From assembly GCA_903642325.1 (NCBI GenBank), contig CAHJWM010000051.1, positions 1-34,985 on the forward strand: a stretch of 34,985 nucleotides of DNA. Reading direction: 5' to 3'. The notes under the pieces are model-generated. The model was not told where the DNA came from, did no database searches, and was given only the letters and a program-made list of their open reading frames with translations. The translations under genes and the position numbers were made by a program. This document shows positions 233 through 18,595 of the stretch, in pieces. Source of the stretch: Myxococcales bacterium. GTDB lineage: Bacteria > Myxococcota_A > Polyangia > Polyangiales > Polyangiaceae. Position 1 is the stretch's first letter; each line of letters begins with the position of its first letter.

Positions 233-507
233 CGCGACTCTCCTGAAGCCTTCTCGGCTGCCCTGGCCACGCGCCAGGGTGTGCGAAAAGGACGCGCAGG
301 CTAGCTTGCGTCGTCGATCCGTACAAGCAAGCCCTTGCGGCGGCGCCCTCTGAGCGCCGGCTGGTTCGAACACGCGGCCGAACGACGCACGACGTGAACG
401 ACCCGCGAGCGTCGAAAATCGCATTCGAATCAATGGGTTAGACCCGCTTTATCGGTTGCGGCCCGGAACTTGACCGGTGCCCGTTTTTCCATCAAGGATC
501 GCGCCGC

Positions 508-1482
508 ATGTCGGACTCGTCGCGTCGCGAGGCGCTGAAGCGCATCGGGCTGGCCGGTGCCGCCCTAGGCGGCGCTGTAGTGACGGCGAAACTGGCCTAC
601 GATCCGGGCGGCTTCGGCTTGGCGGAGGCCGCAGGCAAACGGGAAGTGCGCGACTTTCGGATCCATGCGCCCGGGTCCGCCGCGGACCCCGTGTTTGCGA
701 TCGCCAAGAGCACCACCGATCCGGCCGAGCTAGTGCGGAGGGCGGTCGCTGCTCTCGGTGGCATGAAGCGCTTCGTGTCCCGTGGCGACGTGGTGGCGGT
801 CAAGCCGAACATCGGTTGGGATCGCATGCCGGTGCATGCAGCCAACACCAACCCCCTCGTCGTAGCCGAGGTAGTAAAGCTTGCCTTCGACGCGGGCGCC
901 AAAGAAGTGATCGTCACCGACGCGTCTTGCAACGAGGCGAACCGCTGCTTTCAACGCTCCGGCATTTGGCGAGCCACCTACGCCGTGGGAGCGAACGTCA
1001 TTTTGCCCTCCGCTCATCGCTTTCGCGACATGCGCATGAAGGGCGAGGTGCTCGACCAGTGGCCAGTGTACTTGCCGCTCGTGAATGCGGACAAGGTGAT
1101 CAACGTGCCCATCGCCAAGCATCACAACTTGTCGAAGTTCACCTGCGGCATGAAGAATTGGTACGGCATCCTCGGCGGCCGGCGCAATCGTCTGCACCAG
1201 AATATCGACGTCTCTATCGCTGACTTGGCGACCTTCATGCGTCCTACGCTCACGATCGTAGACGCCACGCGTGTGCTCCTCAGGAACGGCCCGCAAGGCG
1301 GCAATATCGATGACGCCAAAGACATGCATCAAGTGATCGCCGGCCTGGATCAGGTGGCGGTCGATGCCTATAGCTGCACGTTGATCGGTGAGAGTCCCGC
1401 GAACGTGCGCTATCTGAAGCTCGGGCACGAGCGCGGTATTGGTAACATGTTTTGGCAGCAAGTCCCCCACGTGGAGGTCTGA
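508..1482 (+). CDS. Tat-exported DUF362 domain protein
   Basis: A 324-residue protein of the DUF362 family, whose biochemical role is not established. The N-terminus has a twin-arginine export signal: S5-R6-R7-E-A-L10-K11 followed by a Gly/Ala-rich hydrophobic stretch to about residue 30, so the mature protein should be periplasmic or membrane-anchored. The body shows DUF362-like segments: VVAVKPNIGWDR (about 93-104), a VIVTDASCNEA segment, and VINVPIAKHHNLSKFTCGMKNW (about 200-221). The ATG is preceded by AAGGA about 10 bases upstream. The stop lies 56 bases before the start of the polyferredoxin, so the two are probably co-transcribed. DUF362 proteins are often found beside or fused to ferredoxin domains; here the iron-sulfur part is a separate membrane protein. 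The link to electron transfer is inference. Confidence 0.85.
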   Translation: MSDSSRREALKRIGLAGAALGGAVVTAKLAYDPGGFGLAEAAGKREVRDFRIHAPGSAADPVFAIAKSTTDPAELVRRAVAALGGMKRFVSRGDVVAVKPNIGWDRMPVHAANTNPLVVAEVVKLAFDAGAKEVIVTDASCNEANRCFQRSGIWRATYAVGANVILPSAHRFRDMRMKGEVLDQWPVYLPLVNADKVINVPIAKHHNLSKFTCGMKNWYGILGGRRNRLHQNIDVSIADLATFMRPTLTIVDATRVLLRNGPQGGNIDDAKDMHQVIAGLDQVAVDAYSCTLIGESPANVRYLKLGHERGIGNMFWQQVPHVEV

Positions 1483-1537
1483 TGTCGACGACCCGTACCG
1501 GCTCGATCGAGCGGCTAGGGATGGCGCGGGGAGAGCG

Positions 1538-3475
1538 ATGAACGAGGAGCTGCCCGCGCCCATTCCCTGGCTCGGCAACGCCGGTAAAGTCGCGCCCCTC
1601 GACCGCGTCGAGGCAGCGGCGGCGACGCCCCAATTGATTCAGATTCGCAAAGCGGCGAAATCAGCGCCGGCTCCGGCGCTGTATGCGGCCACGTCCGCGT
1701 CCGCCACGATGACGAACAGTGGCGGGCCGAGCGCCCCCACCAAACCCAAACCGGTCGCTAAGAAGCGGCCCGGTTCCGGCATTCCGGCGCGCAAAGTGAT
1801 CCGGATCCTGGTCTGGGTTCGGCGCGCGGCGCAGGTCGGTTTCTTGGGCTTGTTTCTGTATTTTTTGGCGAGCACCGCTTTTCGCGGCACCTTCGCCGCT
1901 ACCGCCGGCGAGCCCGTGCGCTTGCCCCTGCCGGTCGAAGGTTTTTTGCTGGCTGACCCGTTCGTGGGCGCGATGACCCTGCTGAGCACGCACACCATCT
2001 ACCGAGGTCTGGCTTGGTCGCTGGTAGTGCTCGCGCTCACGCTCGTGTTCGGGCGCGTTTTCTGCGGTTGGATTTGCCCGTTCGGGACGCTGCACCACTT
2101 CTTCAGCTGGATTTTTCCGAGCCGCTACTTGCGCGGCAACAAGCGAGTCGAGACGAATCGCACGCATTGGTGGCAGGCCGGCAAATATTACATCATGTGG
2201 GGCTTCATTGGCGCGGCGGTCGTCGGGAGCTCCATCGGCGGGTTGCTCGACCCGATCTGCGTTGCCGTGCGCACCATTGGCCTGGGCGTCATTCCGGCCT
2301 TGCAATACTTCGGGGTGCGTTCGGCCGCGGTGGTTGCCAGCAGCAACGTGCGCACGCTGCAGAACGCGACCGATACCGCTCAGGATTTTTTGGCGCGCAC
2401 CGTGTGGACCGCCAATCAGGGTTACTTCCACCAAACGTGGTTGATCGTTTTCTTCCTGGTGGGCGTGCTCTTCATGAACCGGTTCATTCCGCGGTTCTGG
2501 TGCCGAGCGCTGTGCCCACTCGGCGCCTTTCTAGGCGTTTTCTCACGCTTCTCGCTGTTTGGAATGGAGAAGGACCACGCCAAGTGTACGGACTGCAATC
2601 TCTGCCTCGTCAATTGTCAGGGCGCTGACAACCCCCAGGGCGGGGTGAAACATCGCCAAGACGAATGCCACATGTGCCTGAACTGCGAGAACGCCTGCCC
2701 GGAGGATGTGATCAAGTTTCGCTTCTTGCCCAAGCGCACGAGCACGATCTCCAAGCCGGACCTGCAGCGCCGCACGCTGGTCGCCGCGACGGCCGCCGGC
2801 GCCGTTTGCATCCCTGGCCTGCGCATCGCCAATTGGCCCGACAAAGCTTACAGCGAGAAAGTGATCCGGCCGCCGGGTGCGGTGGAAGAACGCGCGTTCC
2901 TCGAACGCTGCATTCGTTGCGCCGAGTGCATGAAAGTGTGCCCCAACAACGCCCTTCACCCGGCCTTCTTCGAGGCCGGTATCGAAGGCCTGTGGACGCC
3001 GATCCTGATCCCGCGCATCGGCTACTGCGAGTTTTCGTGCGTGCTCTGCGGGCAGGTGTGCCCGACCGGCGCCATTCAGAAGATCACCGAGAAGCAGAAG
3101 ATGGGCATTGGTCAGAAGCCGATTTCTGTCGGCACGGCCATGTACGATCAGGGGCGCTGCTTGCCCTGGGCAATGGCCACGCCCTGCATCGTTTGCGAAG
3201 AGTTTTGTCCGACTTCACCAAAAGCAATTTGGCCGGAAGCGGTCGAGGTACCGAAGCGCGACAGCAAGTATCAAAAAGAGGGGGAACAAGCCGCGATGCT
3301 GACCGTGAAGGTGCAGCGTCCACATGTAGACCCAGGGCTGTGCGTTGGCTGCGGCGCCTGCGAAAAGGTGTGCCCCATTGTCGACAAGCCGGCGGTTTAC
3401 GTCACGAACGCGGGCGAGACACGCTCCAAAACCAACGTAATTTTGCTGGAAAATACCGCATACGGCCAGTCCTGA
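1538..3475 (+). CDS. NapH/MauN-NapG/MauM-like fused membrane polyferredoxin
   Basis: A 645-residue membrane iron-sulfur protein. Residues 1-75 are a low-complexity cytoplasmic-type leader. A multi-pass membrane part follows (about 85-340) with the two NapH/NosR-type motifs C176-GWI-C180-P and C322-RAL-C326-P. Two 4Fe-4S motifs come next: C350/353/356/360 and C377/380/383/387. Residues 409-425 then show a buried twin-arginine-like stretch (R411-R412 plus an Ala-rich hydrophobic run). After it is a NapG/MauM-like ferredoxin with cysteine groups at C458/461/464/468, C497/501/504/508, C550/553/557 and C602/605/608/612. This looks like NapH joined to NapG in one chain. By family analogy it would pass electrons from quinol toward a periplasmic acceptor. 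The acceptor is unknown; the upstream Tat-exported DUF362 protein is the obvious candidate partner. The frame stays open upstream to 1439, but the ATG at 1538 has GGGGAGAG just before it and is preferred. Confidence 0.88.
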   Translation: MNEELPAPIPWLGNAGKVAPLDRVEAAAATPQLIQIRKAAKSAPAPALYAATSASATMTNSGGPSAPTKPKPVAKKRPGSGIPARKVIRILVWVRRAAQVGFLGLFLYFLASTAFRGTFAATAGEPVRLPLPVEGFLLADPFVGAMTLLSTHTIYRGLAWSLVVLALTLVFGRVFCGWICPFGTLHHFFSWIFPSRYLRGNKRVETNRTHWWQAGKYYIMWGFIGAAVVGSSIGGLLDPICVAVRTIGLGVIPALQYFGVRSAAVVASSNVRTLQNATDTAQDFLARTVWTANQGYFHQTWLIVFFLVGVLFMNRFIPRFWCRALCPLGAFLGVFSRFSLFGMEKDHAKCTDCNLCLVNCQGADNPQGGVKHRQDECHMCLNCENACPEDVIKFRFLPKRTSTISKPDLQRRTLVAATAAGAVCIPGLRIANWPDKAYSEKVIRPPGAVEERAFLERCIRCAECMKVCPNNALHPAFFEAGIEGLWTPILIPRIGYCEFSCVLCGQVCPTGAIQKITEKQKMGIGQKPISVGTAMYDQGRCLPWAMATPCIVCEEFCPTSPKAIWPEAVEVPKRDSKYQKEGEQAAMLTVKVQRPHVDPGLCVGCGACEKVCPIVDKPAVYVTNAGETRSKTNVILLENTAYGQS

Positions 3476-3510
3476 GCACGCGTTACGCGGGCACCCCGGA
3501 CCGCGTCAGC

Positions 3511-3677
3511 GCGGTCGGCGCCACCATCGATCGCCGTGGACGACAACGGCTCATGCGCGATTGCACTTGCGGCAACGGGGTCTGGGTAGCCTGTACGATT
3601 TCCCTCATAACTGTGGCGAAGAGTGCAAGACCTCGTGCGGTAACGGCAACTGCGACGGTCTCGGCGCTTGCCAGTAA
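3511..3677 (+). pseudogene. Cys-rich secreted-type domain remnant, frameshifted
   Basis: No single frame is convincing, but pieces of one Cys-rich domain line up across three frames. The pieces in order are: VGATI (from 3514), VDDNGSC (3536-3556, next frame), DCTCGNGVWVAC (3559-3594, first frame again), then YDFPHNCGEECKTSCGNGNC and DGLGACQ (3594-3674, third frame) with stop TAA at 3675. A single -1 step at the TGT/TAC junction (3592-3596) joins the last two pieces smoothly. The spacing resembles Cys-rich repeats common in myxobacterial secreted proteins (general impression, not a search result). It may be a decayed gene between the polyferredoxin and the FHA gene, or a gene broken by indel sequencing errors. 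I see no clear start. Confidence 0.35.
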
Positions 3678-3723
3678 AGGGGTAGTTACCGAAGCGGGGG
3701 CAAGCTAAGCTCGCCCCAACGCG

Positions 3724-5124
3724 ATGACGGCAGACGCCAGCATATCAACATTGCGCACGCAGGCGGGGCGCGTCGCCGAGTGGTTGGTCGAGAAGGCGCG
3801 CCCGGACGAGGCGGTGGCGCTCCTGAGTGCGTGGGCCGCCAATGGCCCAAACGATGCCGAGGGCCAACAGCTACTGGCCGAGGCGCTGCGCATCGATCCT
3901 GGCGCCCGCGTGGCGCAGCTCGCTTTCGAGCGAATGGAGGGAGTTGGCGGTGATCAGGCCGATCTCGGCGCCGCGGTAAGCCGCTACTCGCCAACCGAGC
4001 TTGCCAAGCTCGAAGCCGAAATGAAGCGGCCGAGCTTTCGGCGCGCGCAGATGGGCTTCAACAACAACATCAAGTTTCGTGAAACCGTGTTTCACGTTCA
4101 GACTGAGGACTCCGGTCTCGATCAGCCGCACATCATCACGCACCTCTTTGCCGATGGCGGTCGTGTGGTCAAGAGCCACAAACGTTCGTATGGTGATCAC
4201 GTCGCGCGCCCCGACATCGCCGAGTACGTGCGCAAGCTGATGAAGGCGCAACACCTAGAGATGGTGATGGCGCTGCGCGACGGCGCATTCGACAACGTTC
4301 TGGCGGGCCGCGAGCTAGGTGGGGTCTCTTTGCTGACGCATGAGCCGACGGTGCCGACGCGGGTCAACAAGGGGCAAGGCGTGTCGACCGCCGGGGCGGC
4401 GGCAGGTGCCGAGGTACCCCCCGCGTCGAACCCCGCCGCCATTGTGACCGCGGTAGAAGTGCCCGAGCCGCAGAAGGCAGTCTTCACGCTGCACGTGCGG
4501 CGTTCGTTGTCGGGTGGGCCAGAGCGCTACGATCCGACCGGCAACGAGGCGGTCATCGGCTCGCTCGGCAGCATTTCTTTGCCGGGAGAGCACTTCTGTC
4601 ATCCGCGAGAGGCGCGGCTCAGCGTCCGTGACGAGCGGCTTTGGCTCGAAGACCTGGCCGGCGGCAACGGGGTATTTTTGCGCATCCGCACCCCGGTCGC
4701 GTTGGAGCTGGGAGATGAATTCGTGGTTGGGGACCAGCTGCTACGGATCGAAAAGAACCCAGTGCCCGACGACGGTCCGGACCCGGCGCCGACCTATTTC
4801 TATTCCTCGCCCAAGTGGCCGTCTTCCTTCCGCGTGCTTCAGATCTTCGAGGGCGGAGCCAACGGCTGCTGTGTCGTCGCCAGAGGAAACACGCTGCAGG
4901 TGGGATCGGCCATCGGAGATCTCGTTTTCCCCGACGACCCGCTCGTGGACGAACAGCACTGCCTCATCGAGGAGCAGGCCGGCACCGTGGTGTTGACGGA
5001 CATGGGCTCGCGCACCGGCGTCTTCGTCCGCGTGCGCGGCGAGCAGGAGCTGAATCAAGGCGATGAGCTTCTGATCGGTCGGACCCGATTGGTCGTGGAC
5101 CTCAAGCGCAAATCTGCCGCTTGA
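3724..5124 (+). CDS. Double FHA-domain protein
   Basis: A 466-residue cytoplasmic protein with no signal peptide. Residues 1-75 form a TPR-like helical repeat (EKARPDEAVALLSAWAANGP...). Residues 100-195 are a separate conserved-looking block (NNNIKFRETVFHVQTED, then HIITHLFADGG) that I cannot name. An Ala/Pro linker follows. Two FHA folds come next: about 270-360 (LPGEHFCHPREARL, then LEDLAGGNGVFLRI) and about 375-460 (FPDDPLVDEQHCLIEE, then LTDMGSRTGVFVRV). FHA domains bind phosphothreonine, so this protein probably reads Ser/Thr kinase output; a Hanks-type kinase is encoded at 22417-24051. The canonical FHA GR-S core is degenerate in the first copy. The start ATG has only a weak ribosome site. 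Confidence 0.85.
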   Translation: MTADASISTLRTQAGRVAEWLVEKARPDEAVALLSAWAANGPNDAEGQQLLAEALRIDPGARVAQLAFERMEGVGGDQADLGAAVSRYSPTELAKLEAEMKRPSFRRAQMGFNNNIKFRETVFHVQTEDSGLDQPHIITHLFADGGRVVKSHKRSYGDHVARPDIAEYVRKLMKAQHLEMVMALRDGAFDNVLAGRELGGVSLLTHEPTVPTRVNKGQGVSTAGAAAGAEVPPASNPAAIVTAVEVPEPQKAVFTLHVRRSLSGGPERYDPTGNEAVIGSLGSISLPGEHFCHPREARLSVRDERLWLEDLAGGNGVFLRIRTPVALELGDEFVVGDQLLRIEKNPVPDDGPDPAPTYFYSSPKWPSSFRVLQIFEGGANGCCVVARGNTLQVGSAIGDLVFPDDPLVDEQHCLIEEQAGTVVLTDMGSRTGVFVRVRGEQELNQGDELLIGRTRLVVDLKRKSAA

Positions 5125-5678: not shown

Positions 5679-6314
5679 GTGAAGTTCGAAGCGCTTGCCC
5701 CCCATTTACGCCTGGTCTCGGCCAGCGCCGCGCCGTGCGAGCCCAATCCGGAGTCAGACGTCGAGGACGAGCGGCTGGTCGCCCGCGCTTGCAGTGGCGA
5801 GCTACTCGCCTTCGAGCTGCTTTACCGCAGACACGCCGGCTTCGCGCTGAGCTTGGCCGTGCGCATTCAAGGCTCCGCCACCGACGTGGAGGACATCGTG
5901 CACGATGCATTTCTCAAAGCCAGCGAGCGGATCGCCGAGCTTCGGGACGGCTCCGCATTTCGCTCGTGGCTTGGCAGCATCGTCGTGCGATTGGTGCGAA
6001 CGCGCTTACGACGACGGCGCTTGCTGAGCTCGCTTGGCCTTGCCAGCGCCGAGCCGGTCGAGCTCGATGCGATCGCCTCGCCGAATGCCGACCCGGAGAG
6101 CCGGGTACTCTTGGCGCAGATCTATTCACTTCTGCAAACCTTGCCGGCAGACGACCGCATCGCCTGGACGCTGCGCTACGTCGATCACCACCGCTTGGAA
6201 GTCGTGGCGACGCTCGTGGCATGTTCACTCGCCACGGCCAAGCGCCGCATTGCTCGCGCGCAACGCTATCTCACCGATCATTTCGTGCCAGCTTTTGCCG
6301 GGAACGCGAAATGA
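5679..6314 (+). CDS. ECF-type RNA polymerase sigma factor
   Basis: A 211-residue sigma-70-family factor of the ECF layout. Region 2 covers about residues 35-95 (LLAFELLYRRHAGFALS, then DVEDIVHDAFLKASERI, the region 2.2 signature). Region 4 covers about 148-200 (LLQTLPADDRIAWTLRYVDH, then a helix-turn-helix ending ATAKRRIARAQRYL). Regions 1.1 and 3 are absent. It directs RNA polymerase to a specific promoter set. The start is GTG at 5679, with GGAG 7 bases upstream. Its stop overlaps the next gene's ATG (ATGA), so it is translationally coupled to a single-pass membrane protein. That arrangement is typical of a sigma factor with a membrane partner. The inducing signal is unknown. Confidence 0.9.
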   Translation: MKFEALAPHLRLVSASAAPCEPNPESDVEDERLVARACSGELLAFELLYRRHAGFALSLAVRIQGSATDVEDIVHDAFLKASERIAELRDGSAFRSWLGSIVVRLVRTRLRRRRLLSSLGLASAEPVELDAIASPNADPESRVLLAQIYSLLQTLPADDRIAWTLRYVDHHRLEVVATLVACSLATAKRRIARAQRYLTDHFVPAFAGNAK

Positions 6315-13285: not shown

Positions 13286-16200
13286 ATGCTACCGACGATT
13301 CTGGAAGGCGCACAGACTCACAACCTAAAGAACCTCGACCTAGAGCTCCAGCCCGGCGAGGTGGTGGTCATCACGGGTGTTTCCGGGTCGGGCAAGAGTA
13401 GCCTGGCGATGGACACGTTGTACGCGGAAGGGCAGCGCCGGTTCGTCGAAAGCTTCAGCCCGTATGCGCGCCAATTTTTGGAGCGCTTGGAGCGTCCGCC
13501 GATGAAGCGGCTCGAGCCTGTTCCGGCGGGCATCGCGGTGGATCGCCGCGCCCCCGTCAAAAGCTCGCGTTCGACGGTTGCGACGATGGCGGACCTCGAG
13601 CCGTACCTGTCCGCATTATTTTTGCGCGAAGCGCGCCCCGTGTGTCCCGATCACGGCTTCGAAGCGCGCACGCTCGACGTAGCAAGCGCCGCGCGGAGCG
13701 CCGCGCAACACACCGGGAATGCGCGCGCGGTAGTCACTTATCCGGTGCGAGTTCCGGGCACCGAGGCGTATCTGGAGGTGCGAGAGGGGCTTTTGCGCGA
13801 CGGTTACCGGCGCCTGTGGTTGGCCGGCAAAGCCGAAGACCTCGATACCCTGAAGCCTTCGGCGGCCATTCAAAGTGGTCAGCTTGCAGTAGTGGTCGAT
13901 CGCGTGGCTAGCGGCAAGGACCAGCCGCGTCTCGCCCAGGGCATTGAAGCGGCCTGGCTCCGCTCGGGCGGCGTCGCCCATATCCATTCAGAAGCCGGAG
14001 AGCTCCATCTCAAACGCGGCCTGTCCTGCCCCGAGTGCAGCCGTGAGCTGTTGCCGGCTCGCCCCGGCATGTTTTCCTACGAGTCTCCGCTCGGCGCTTG
14101 TCCCGCTTGTCGCGGCTTCGGTCGCACGCTCGGCGTAGACATCCCCAAGGTAATCCCAGACGAGTCTCGCAGCCTAGAAAAGGGCGCAGTGCGGCCCTGG
14201 CGCGGCGCTTCCACCAAGTCGGAGCGAAGCGAGCTCGGCAAGCTTGCCCGCCGTCACGGAATTCCCATGGACAAGCCGTGGCGTTCGTTGTCGGCGGCTC
14301 ACAAAAAGATCGTGCTGGGCGGCGACGGCGGTTGGGAAAAGGGCGCCTTTCCCGGCGTACTTGGTTGGTTCAAATGGCTCGAAACCAAAACCTATAAAAT
14401 GCACGTGCGGGTACTGCTCGCCCGCTACCGTTCGTACGACCAATGTGAGGCCTGTCATGGCAAACGTCTGAACGCCACCGCGCTCGGCTATCGCGTAGCG
14501 GGAGTTAGCTTGGCCGACTTTCACGGTTTGGAAATTCGTGAAGCCAAGCATCAGGTTGGTCTTTTGAAGTGCGAGTCCGCGCAGGGCGAGCTCGCACGCA
14601 AGGAGCTTTCGAATCGGCTCGACTATTTGGATCGAGTGGGGCTCGGCTATCTGACGCTCGACCGTCAAGCGCGCACCTTGTCTGGCGGTGAGGCACAGCG
14701 CGTGACGCTGACCGCGGCCCTCGGCACTTCACTGTGCAGCGCACTGTTCGTGCTCGACGAACCCACTGTCGGCCTGCATCCGAGCGACGTAGAGCCCTTG
14801 AACGAGATTTTAAAGGAGCTCGCGCAGCGGGACAACATGGTGCTCGTGGTCGAGCACGACCCCGCCGTCATTCGCGGTGCCGATCGCGTCATAGAGCTCG
14901 GCCCAGGCGCGGGCAATGATGGTGGCCGCATCGTGAAAGACGCCCCGCCGAGTGCCTTCGACGACGCGAGTACTGCGACCGGGCGCGCGCTCGGCGCGGC
15001 ACCAGCCGCGAAACGTGAACCGCGTCAGCCTACCGGCTGGCTAGCGGTGAAAGGTGCGACCGCCAATAACTTGCGCGCTATCGACGTCGAGTTGCCGCTC
15101 GGCGTGGTGTGCGCCGTCACCGGGCCGAGCGGTTCGGGCAAGAGCACCTTGGCGGTCGACATCATTTACCGTTCTTTGGCTAGAAACCTGGGCGATTTCG
15201 ACGAAGAGCAGCCGGGCGCGTGCGCCGGCATCGACGGTTTGTCGCAGATAAAATCGATCACCCTGGTCGACCAGTCCCCCCTCGGAAGAACCTCTCGTGG
15301 CAACGCCGCCACGTACACGAAGGCGTGGGATTTGGTGCGCTCGCTCTATGCGAAGCAACCCGAAGCCGGTGCTCTTGGCCTGAGCGCGTCCGACTTTTCG
15401 TTCAACGTGGAAGGGGGGCGATGCGACGCTTGCTCCGGGGAGGGCTTCGAGACCGTCGAGATGCAGTTCTTGGCCGACGTGCGTTTGGTCTGCCCGGCCT
15501 GCCGCGGCAAGCGCTTCAAGAGTGCGGTGCTCGCGGTGTCGAGGAACGGTGTGAGTATATCCGATGTTTTGGACATGACCGTGACCGCAGCGCTCTCGCA
15601 TTTCGCTTCAGAGGTTGGGTTGCAACGTGCGCTCGGGCCCGTCGATCGCTTGGGCCTCGGGTACTTGCGGCTGGGGCAATCGCTCTCGACCTTGTCGGGC
15701 GGTGAGGCCCAGCGCCTGAAGCTCGCACGGGCGCTCAGTGAGAAACATGCGGGCGCCCTATTCGTTCTGGATGAACCGAGCGCAGGGCTGCATGCGGACG
15801 AAGTCGCGCGCGTGCTCTCAGCGCTTGCGGTGATCGTCGAGGCCGGTGGCAGCGTAGTCGTGGTCGAGCATGATTTGGATATGGTCGCCAGTGCGGATTT
15901 CGTGCTCGATTTGGGACCGGAAGCCGGGGTTGGGGGTGGGCAGGTAGTGGCGAGTGGCGCGCCGCGCGACGTGGCGCGGGTGCATGAGTCGCGCACTGGG
16001 CGCGCCCTCGCGTTGCACTTTGCCAATCGGGAGCAGAAGCGTAACCCCGCCGAGTCGAGACGCGCGGGGCGCGTCATCGCGCCCGCGCGACCGAAGCATG
16101 TTCAAAAGCTCTCTGTCACGCGAGCACGCGAACACAACCTCCACGACGTAAGCGTGGACATCCCCCACGGCGCGCTGACCGTGGTCACGGGTCCTAGTGG

Positions 16201-18595
16201 CTCGGGTAAAAGCACGCTCGCTTTCGACGTGGTGTTCGCGGAGGGGCAGCGCCGCTTCCTAGAAACGCTGACCCCTTACGCGCGGCAATTTTTACCCACG
16301 ATGCCCCGCCCCGACGTAGACAGCGTCACCGGTGTCCCGCCGAGCATCGCCCTGGAGCAGCGTACCTCGCGCGCCGGCGGCAAATCCACGGTGGCCACCG
16401 TCACCGAGGTCGCCCATTACCTGCGCTTGCTTTACGCAAAGCTCGGTGTCGCGCATTGCCCAACGCATGACGCGCCCATTTTACGCTCGAGTCCAGAAGC
16501 GATTTTTCGTAGCGTGCGGGCCGCGCGTGGCAAGGTCTCCCTGCTCGCGCCCGCGGTTCAGGCCAGAAAAGGCACCTATCTCGAGGTGTTTTCGGCGGCG
16601 GCACGGGACGGCATCGAGAGCTCGTATGCGGACGGCGAGCTCGTGTCCAATGACGATCCGCCGCGTCTCGCGCGGAACCAAGAGCACACCATCGATCTGG
16701 TCATCTGCCAGCGCGTCGATGCGGTGGCGATCACGGATGAGGAGCTGGCGCGAGCGCTCCGCTGGGGCAGCGGCGCGCTGAAGCTCCGCGTGGGCGCCAA
16801 GGAGACATTGCACTCCACCCTCAGCGCTTGTCCGAAATGCGGCTTTTCGGTGCCAGAGCTCGATCCGCGTTGGTTCTCGTTCGCGACCAAGCAGGGGCGC
16901 TGCGAAACCTGCGACGGTAACGGCGTAATTTTGGCGGAGGCGAAGCGCGGTCGTAAGAAGAAGGTCGGGTCCGAGCCAGTTCCGGAGGTCTGCCCGGAAT
17001 GTGCCGGCGCGCGCCTATCGCCAATCCCGCGCGCCGTGCGTGTCGCGGGCGAGCGCTATCACGAGCTTTCCGCTCGTTCGATTATCAATGCCAGCGAAAG
17101 AGTGGCGGCTCTCGCGTTTTCGCGTGAGCAACTGCCGATCGCGACTCCGATCCTCGGCGAGCTTCGTCGAAGGATGGACTTCTTGCGGGACGTAGGGCTC
17201 GGCTACCTGTCGCTCGACCGCGCCGCGCATACGCTTTCCGGCGGAGAAATGCAGCGTTTGCGCCTAGCCGCCCAGCTAGGCGCTGGCCTCACCGGCGCGC
17301 TCTACGTGCTCGACGAGCCGACGATTGGGCTACACCCTCGGGATACCGGTCGCTTGCTCACGAATCTGCGTAATCTAGTCAACCTGGGTTCGACGGTGCT
17401 GGTGGTCGAGCACGACACGGAGACGATCCGCGCCGCCGATCACTTGATCGATCTGGGACCAGGCGGCGGATCGCGCGGAGGACGCGTGATCGCTCAAGGT
17501 ACGCCGACGCAGGTGCTGAAAATCGCGGAGTCGCCTACGGGCCGCGCGCTGGCCGCGCCGGCCGCCCTCCGCGCGCCCAAGCCCATCCAACGTGGTGGGC
17601 CCGAGCTCGTGATCTCTGGCGCTAGCGCGAACAACCTCAAAGACGTTGAGCTTCGCATTCCGCTCGGACACTTCACGGTCGTGGCGGGGGTAAGCGGGTC
17701 GGGCAAGAGTACGCTGGTACGGCACGTGCTGTTACCGGCGTTGCGGCAAAAGCTCGGGCTCGTGACAGAACCTCCGGGAAAGTTTCAGAGCATGCGCGGC
17801 CAACACGACCTCGAGCGGGCGGTGGCGGTCGATCAGTCGCCAATTGGGCGCACCCCGCGCTCCACGCCGGCCACATTTTTGGGGATCTGGGATGCGATCC
17901 GTAAGCTGTTTGCCGCCAGCAATGGCGCGAAAATCGCGGGCTTCGAGGCGACTCGATTTTCATTCAACAGCAACGGCGGCGGCCGCTGCACGACTTGTGA
18001 AGGCCAAGGCGTGATCACGCACGAGATGAGCTTCTTACCGGACGTCGTCACGCCGTGCCCGACGTGTGACGGCATGCGTTTCGAGGGTCAAACGCTCGAG
18101 ATCAAGTACCTCGGGCGCTCGATCGGCGAAGTGCTCAAGCTGACGGCCGAAGAGGCCGCGGAGCTGTTCGCGAATCATGCGACGGTCGCCGCGCCCCTAC
18201 AGACACTTTCCGACCTGGGCGCCGGCTACATCACGCTCGGTCAGGGCTCGCATACGCTGTCCGGCGGCGAAGCTCAGCGACTCAAGCTCGCCGCCGAGCT
18301 GACAGCTACGCGGCACCACGAAAAAACGCTGTACGTACTGGACGAGCCCACCACCGGCCTGCACATCGCCGATGTCGCAAAGCTGATGAGCGTGCTGGGC
18401 CGCCTCGTTGCCCGCGGCGACACGCTGATCGTGATCGAACATCACCCCCAGGTCATCGCCGGGGCGGACTACCTGGTCGAGCTGGGACCCGAGGGCGGCT
18501 CCCAGGGTGGGAAAATCGTGGCTGCGGGAACGCCCGCGGCTGTCGCTAAAGGCAAGACGGCGACGGCATCCGTCGTGCGCCAATTGCTGGCCTGA
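13286..18595 (+). CDS. uvrA: Tandem-duplicated UvrA-like excinuclease subunit (four ABC modules)
   Basis: A single 1769-residue ORF carrying two full UvrA units. Unit 1 has Walker [10 protein letters not shown] (31-39), signature LSGGEAQR (465-472), Walker [10 protein letters not shown] (613-621) and signature LSGGEAQR (803-810). Unit 2 repeats the order with Walker A at 969-977, LSGGEMQR (1317-1324), Walker [10 protein letters not shown] (1468-1476) and LSGGEAQR (1658-1665). Walker B motifs ([52 protein letters not shown]) follow each signature. Zinc-finger cysteines ([34 protein letters not shown]) are present. Normal UvrA is about 940 residues and works as a homodimer in nucleotide-excision damage recognition. 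This chain would be a covalent dimer whose halves have diverged, so it may be specialised for a different lesion or role. No SOS box is evident upstream. Confidence 0.93.

Follow-up and report, generated by a model that had tools for sequence, protein, structure and literature searches.

Two adjacent genes in the stretch of DNA analysed here (34,985 nucleotides in full length, referred to as the window) likely form an electron-transfer unit. The upstream gene encodes a DUF362 protein with a twin-arginine N-terminus, and the downstream gene encodes a fusion of NapH and NapG, which is a polytopic polyferredoxin. The order of the two genes recurs far beyond chance, because DUF362 lies directly upstream of the fusion gene, or overlaps it, in 103 of the 106 distinct loci in which this can be judged. 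The best explanation is a quinone-linked electron line across the membrane that serves a periplasmic redox protein with the fold of LarA, the nickel enzyme lactate racemase, and a cofactor of the nickel-pincer nucleotide (NPN) type; its chances of being right or wrong are judged to be about equal. The link of DUF362 to the LarA fold and NPN and the pairing of DUF362 with the fusion appear to be the new elements, while the fusion itself has already been published (PMC5449189).

The gene pair and its recurrence

The window comes from a 5.8-Mb draft genome; among named genomes it matches those of Polyangiaceae and other Myxococcota best. This genome has one copy of the fusion gene and two DUF362 genes. 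Fusion residues are numbered with Met as 1. The features of the pair are as follows.

508-1482 (+): DUF362 gene, 324 aa (Pfam PF04015, E 3.5e-47)
508-633 (+): twin-arginine signal region of DUF362, R6-R7 followed by an Ala/Gly/Leu-rich stretch (R6 in 99/109 and R7 in 98/109 proteins of the family alignment)
928-948 (+): C141-N142...C147 of DUF362, aligned near the LarA His108 position; C141 and C147 are kept in orthologues only
1123-1197 (+): H206-x9-K216-x13-H230 of DUF362, apparent counterpart of the LarA cofactor site His174/Lys184/His200, with the register taken from profile and structural alignments
1538-3475 (+): NapH-NapG fusion gene, 645 aa (NCBIfam NapH and NapG models, 25-sequence alignment)
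2063-2515 (+): NapH-type CxxxCP motifs C176/C180 and C322/C326, flanking membrane helices (Pfam Fer4_5; invariant)
2585-2698 (+): two [4Fe-4S]-type groups, C350-C360 and C377-C387, predicted on the cytoplasmic side (invariant cysteines)
2768-2830 (+): internal Tat motif R411-R412 and weakly hydrophobic fifth helix, residues 413-431 (RR invariant; hydropathy; basic residues after the helix)
2909-3373 (+): NapG-like domain with four [4Fe-4S]-type groups, C458-C468, C497-C508, C541-C557 and C602-C612, predicted periplasmic (NapG model; invariant cysteines)

The fusion gene starts at an in-frame ATG at 1538 and ends at 3475, so that the spacer after DUF362 is 55 bases and not the 56 given in the preliminary description. 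Upstream of the pair is a gene for ribosomal protein L31 (2-433, -). Directly after the pair lies a gene whose product combines an N-terminal RomY domain with an FHA domain at the C-terminus (3724-5124, +), and an ECF-type sigma factor gene is located further downstream (5679-6314, +). An open reading frame of 1769 aa at 13286-18595 (+) contains two UvrA interaction domains and is apparently a double-length UvrA. The preliminary description had stated that no gene for a nitrate reductase, methylamine dehydrogenase or cytochrome is nearby, and no such domain was detected among the main open reading frames of the remaining window (several short ones were outside the search). A promoter and terminator scan of 300-3800 gave no convincing signal, and no RNA families were found in the first 6 kb.

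Loci with the fusion were gathered from genome contigs, from relatives and from the phylum, using profiles for both proteins. DUF362 was found directly upstream on the same strand in 101 of the 110 distinct loci, and four loci end too early to tell. The other five were flagged as lacking DUF362, and two of them (L019 and L083) do have it, abutting or overlapping the start of the fusion gene. After this correction only L032, L170 and the weak homologue L173 are without an upstream DUF362. The 106 testable loci are nearly all from Myxococcota, plus one Acidobacteriota genome, and the pair is near-core in one myxobacterial family. Tabulating the neighbours had been named beforehand as the test of the two-gene unit, and the proposal passed it. 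A related arrangement was found in one record from the Bacteroidota. In Parabacteroides distasonis, only 6 bp separate a DUF362 gene (39% identity) from a downstream gene for a 4Fe-4S protein, which is 27% identical to the window fusion and likewise contains an internal RR (SRRTFL); this DUF362 keeps the same His-Lys-His triad. A literature search, which left out preprints and most subscription papers, returned no report of DUF362 paired with the fusion.

The NapH-NapG fusion

The N-terminal part of the fusion matches the NCBIfam NapH models with E values of 3e-22 and 8e-22, although the scores are below the curated family cut-offs (TIGR02163 and PRK09477, 79 versus 213 and 78 versus 234 bits). 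Residues 406-624 match the NapG model (PRK09476) with an E value of 1.6e-25, again below its cut-off (90 versus 269 bits), and NapG is the best match of the C-terminal half, where an unrelated ferredoxin family had been named as the alternative. In an alignment of 25 sequences, with homologues 52-79% identical to the window protein, all cluster cysteines and R411-R412 are invariant. The fused architecture with both CxxxCP motifs and six further cluster motifs, as first read from the window, is thus confirmed by the models and the invariant cysteines.

Polytopic polyferredoxins were found by Tooke et al. (2017) in a scan for internal twin arginines, and the protein Q1NSB0 of MLMS-1 was identified there as a NapH-NapG fusion (PMC5449189). 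In that paper, Q1NSB0 undergoes Sec/Tat dual targeting, with Tat-dependent export after the fifth helix demonstrated by reporters, and such proteins follow a rule that the last helix is weakly hydrophobic with basic residues after it (PMC5449189). The rule fits the window fusion, RRTLVAATAAGAVCIPGLRIANWPDKAYSEKVIR. In line with the earlier suggestion that R411-R412 marks the start of a NapG-type Tat signal, the RR is invariant and the NapG model begins at residue 406. Judged from its sequence, the fusion is a member of the polytopic polyferredoxin type, having a NapH-like part, a NapG-like part and an internal RR immediately ahead of the weakly hydrophobic helix. The architecture was also considered as a novelty, and this was rejected since PMC5449189 already describes it. 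The AlphaFold2 model of the fusion had a pLDDT of only 40, and its topology was therefore taken from motifs and hydropathy alone. By analogy with Q1NSB0, the window fusion would be assembled through both Sec and Tat.

The DUF362 protein and NPN synthesis

The DUF362 protein scores 161.5 bits against PF04015, for which the Pfam gathering score is 24 bits, and is a member of this family. Its N-terminus is of the twin-arginine type, MSDSSRREALKRIGLAGAALGG, and the protein is predicted to be exported by Tat, in agreement with the preliminary description. Across 109 DUF362 proteins, H206 and K216 are present in all and H230 in 108. Because an H-x9-K-x10..26-H pattern turns up in 13% of shuffled-sequence trials, the motif counts only through this family-wide invariance and through the alignment with LarA. 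An iron-sulfur DUF362 was rejected as the main idea, because the sole orthologue-conserved cysteines are C141 and C147, and C213 and C290 are not kept.

An AlphaFold2 model of DUF362 built from 36 sequences was of good quality (pLDDT 82.9, pTM 0.80). When the PDB was searched with this model by Foldseek, 19 of the 19 matches at E<=1e-3 were LarA-family structures. VIA-align superposed 202-211 of its residues on LarA at about 3 Å, with Z of 14.7-17.6, and the next unrelated match had a Z of 5.3. The aligned part is residues 67-297 of DUF362 on residues 35-270 of LarA, the N-domain that contains the NPN-binding residues. These results predict that the window DUF362 has the fold of the LarA (lactate racemase) N-domain. 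A profile comparison of DUF362 with LarA over 139 columns was weak (probability 11%, P 0.0026); its register places H206 and K216 on the equivalents of LarA His174 and Lys184, and N142 on His108. The structural alignment, which pairs 67 with 35 at one end and 297 with 270 at the other, has offsets that fit this register. Searching PDB sequences with DUF362 profiles gave no LarA match and no hit of any kind, and the LarA link therefore rests on the fold, the weak profile alignment and the published clan, in which Pfam unites DUF362 and the LarA domain (PMC11770544). At least one DUF362 paralogue (G032:C9) is also picked up by the Lar_N model. In LarA, NPN is bound through Lys184 and His200, and His108 and His174 form the acid-base pair (PMC7583248, PMC12611868); certain homologues of LarA likewise possess just one catalytic His (PMC12611868).

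The co-occurrence of four families was examined in 283 Myxococcota genomes of at least 90% completeness, counts which are not phylogenetically independent. LarC, which serves NPN synthesis, and DUF362 were found together in 181 genomes, LarC only in 24, DUF362 only in 10 and neither in 68 (odds ratio 51). The association is retained among the LarA-negative genomes (61, 14, 6 and 68, respectively; odds ratio 49), and in the same 283 genomes the odds ratio of LarC and LarA is 32. For the control, nickel hydrogenase, it is 0.5 with LarC and 0.9 with DUF362. One family (f5) provides a natural contrast, with 15 listed genomes having neither LarC nor DUF362 and two having both. In these two genomes, larB, larC, larE, a putative terpene-cyclase-like gene (so called from its repeats) and a DUF362 gene with a Tat signal stand in one row on one strand (L162, 3359-7952; L163, 2138-6810), and LarA was searched for and not found in either genome. 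In Streptomyces sp. NBC_01450 (NZ_CP109481.1, 38.3-46.4 kb; L186, 2278-10377), a larE-larB-larC row lies about 4 kb from a DUF362 gene that adjoins genes for a cyclase-family protein, a DAHP synthase and a chorismate-binding enzyme. DUF362 is thus linked to larBCE at the level of the family. The Streptomyces cluster also adjoins an apparent peptide synthetase gene and looks like a biosynthetic cluster using a LarA-fold protein. At another locus (L165, 1931-7675), larE and larC lie close to the gene of an uncharacterised LarA-like protein, of a ~550-aa type common in the phylum. The literature search gave no paper that connects DUF362 with NapGH or with the use of NPN, with preprints and most subscription papers outside its coverage.

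The genome of the window itself has the NPN-synthesis proteins LarB, LarC and LarE, plus a LarA-like protein. LarC is present in 66 of the 69 polyferredoxin-positive Myxococcota genomes, with LarA absent from 14 of these 66, and in 14 of 14 further genomes with the pair, including the acidobacterium. Three polyferredoxin-positive genomes are LarC-negative. G035 and G228 are 91-92% complete drafts, which can miss genes, and two congeners of G228 have LarC; in G225 the fusion is a weak homologue without DUF362. Among the control genomes, Synechococcus elongatus has DUF362 and LarC without LarA, and Bacteroides ihuae has DUF362 without LarC. The triad is also kept by four members of a ferredoxin-bearing DUF362 subfamily, all from LarC-negative genomes, so the triad alone is insufficient evidence for NPN. 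DUF362 is present in several copies in genomes with the pair, and with a LarA-like protein in the window's own genome, LarC may serve those instead. That the window DUF362 itself carries NPN is accordingly put forward as a tentative reading, somewhat short of an even chance.

Mechanism, alternatives and known systems

In the proposed mechanism, four helices of the fusion would be inserted by Sec, and the fifth, weakly hydrophobic helix would be handed to Tat, which would export the folded NapG-like domain with its four [4Fe-4S] clusters to the periplasm. The NapH part, by analogy with NapGH, may exchange electrons with quinone, and would have its clusters on the cytoplasmic side. The fusion would then connect the quinone pool with the separately Tat-exported DUF362, its dedicated partner, and the two proteins would exchange electrons. 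The H206-x9-K216-x13-H230 site of DUF362 would hold a pyridinium cofactor that is covalently attached and binds metal (NPN or a close relative) and that could be loaded in the cytoplasm before export. Export of DUF362 in the folded state by Tat suits such loading. The protein would perform hydride or electron chemistry on some small molecule. The preliminary description had offered three roles for DUF362, those of terminal acceptor, cofactor carrier and maturation factor; the two-gene unit holds up, and for DUF362 the evidence points to a redox protein of LarA fold in which a cofactor site of the LarA type is conserved.

The same electron-transfer unit could operate with a DUF362 that has no NPN and uses another cofactor, or binds its substrate directly in the LarA-type pocket, with the association with LarC arising from other DUF362 subfamilies and LarA in these genomes. 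This is given roughly one chance in three. It is consistent with the pair in Bacteroidota while the control Bacteroides ihuae is without LarC, with the triad of the ferredoxin-bearing proteins from LarC-negative genomes and with the several DUF362 copies per genome; the 66 LarC-positive genomes among the 69 with the polyferredoxin, the 14 of them without LarA and the acidobacterial genome all speak against it. An accessory role of DUF362, in which it would mature or repair other exported enzymes or deliver cofactor to them with electrons from the fusion, is improbable. No classical terminal reductase gene lies nearby among the main open reading frames of the window, and carriers of an NPN-type cofactor are conceivable, but the site, with its invariant Lys for attachment, looks like the active site of an enzyme, and a DUF362 gene beside larBCE in operons without LarA is more in keeping with an end user than with a carrier.

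MauM/N-type proteins pass the electrons of methylamine dehydrogenase to quinone. The flow in the unit may run in the same direction, with DUF362 oxidising a periplasmic substrate and the fusion sending the electrons to quinone, which is considered less likely than not. MauM/N are of the NapG/H kind, as reflected in the names of the NCBIfam models, and in the first step of LarA chemistry a 2-hydroxy acid loses a hydride (PMC12611868), both of which suit this direction; the well-studied NapGH, by contrast, oxidises quinol (PMC5449189).

Returning to the preferred reading of a quinone-linked unit with an NPN-type DUF362, the gene pair points to a periplasmic redox enzyme of a new kind, and an anonymous pair of genes becomes a defined hypothesis on periplasmic redox metabolism. 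More broadly, DUF362 may be a second large family of NPN proteins and the missing client in ~15% of larBCE-positive, larA-less genomes, with the unit of the window as an exported quinone-linked nickel-pincer oxidoreductase that performs net redox reactions with external electrons, not racemisation; we lean slightly against this wider proposal. It would provide a concrete candidate client for larBCE genomes without LarA, one with a LarA-like and not a distinct fold, and makes the question of the missing client directly testable.

Among known systems, NapG and NapH, the quinol dehydrogenase of periplasmic nitrate reductase, have the same modules and cluster motifs as the window fusion, but are separate proteins of the nap operon, whereas in the window they are fused and no reductase is found among the main open reading frames. 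Q1NSB0 of delta proteobacterium MLMS-1 is a fusion with an internal RR before a weakly hydrophobic fifth helix as in the window (PMC5449189); compared with it the window protein is longer at the N-terminus by a variable stretch of about 75 residues, and the available text of that paper mentions no DUF362 partner.

LarA and the window DUF362 have in common the N-domain fold and the His-x9-Lys with a following His, and by register the NPN-attachment Lys and the Ni-ligand His of LarA would be matched by K216 and H230. LarA has two catalytic His (108 and 174), whereas DUF362 has only H206, and N142 appears to replace the other. LarA is about 420 aa with a C-terminal domain, while DUF362 has 324 aa in all and its structural match stops at LarA residue 270. 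Unlike LarA, the window protein is predicted to be exported and is proposed to have an electron-transfer partner. With the cofactor side kept, the racemase chemistry partly lost and only the N-domain matched, DUF362 should therefore not be called LarA.

Npun_F2552 (NCBIfam NF052623), cyanobacterial by name, is a DUF362 relative that matches the window protein with an E value of 1.5e-16 and lar-operon DUF362 at 1e-35, although neither score comes near the family cut-off of 500 bits. The ferredoxin-bearing DUF362 subfamily has the DUF362 domain and triad as in the window, and likewise iron-sulfur clusters as partner, located within the same chain, unlike in the window pair. The four proteins examined (L178-L181), all from LarC-negative genomes, contain ferredoxin motifs and keep a LarA-like His-x9-Lys-x15-His. 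DUF362 and [4Fe-4S] carriers are thus joined elsewhere too.
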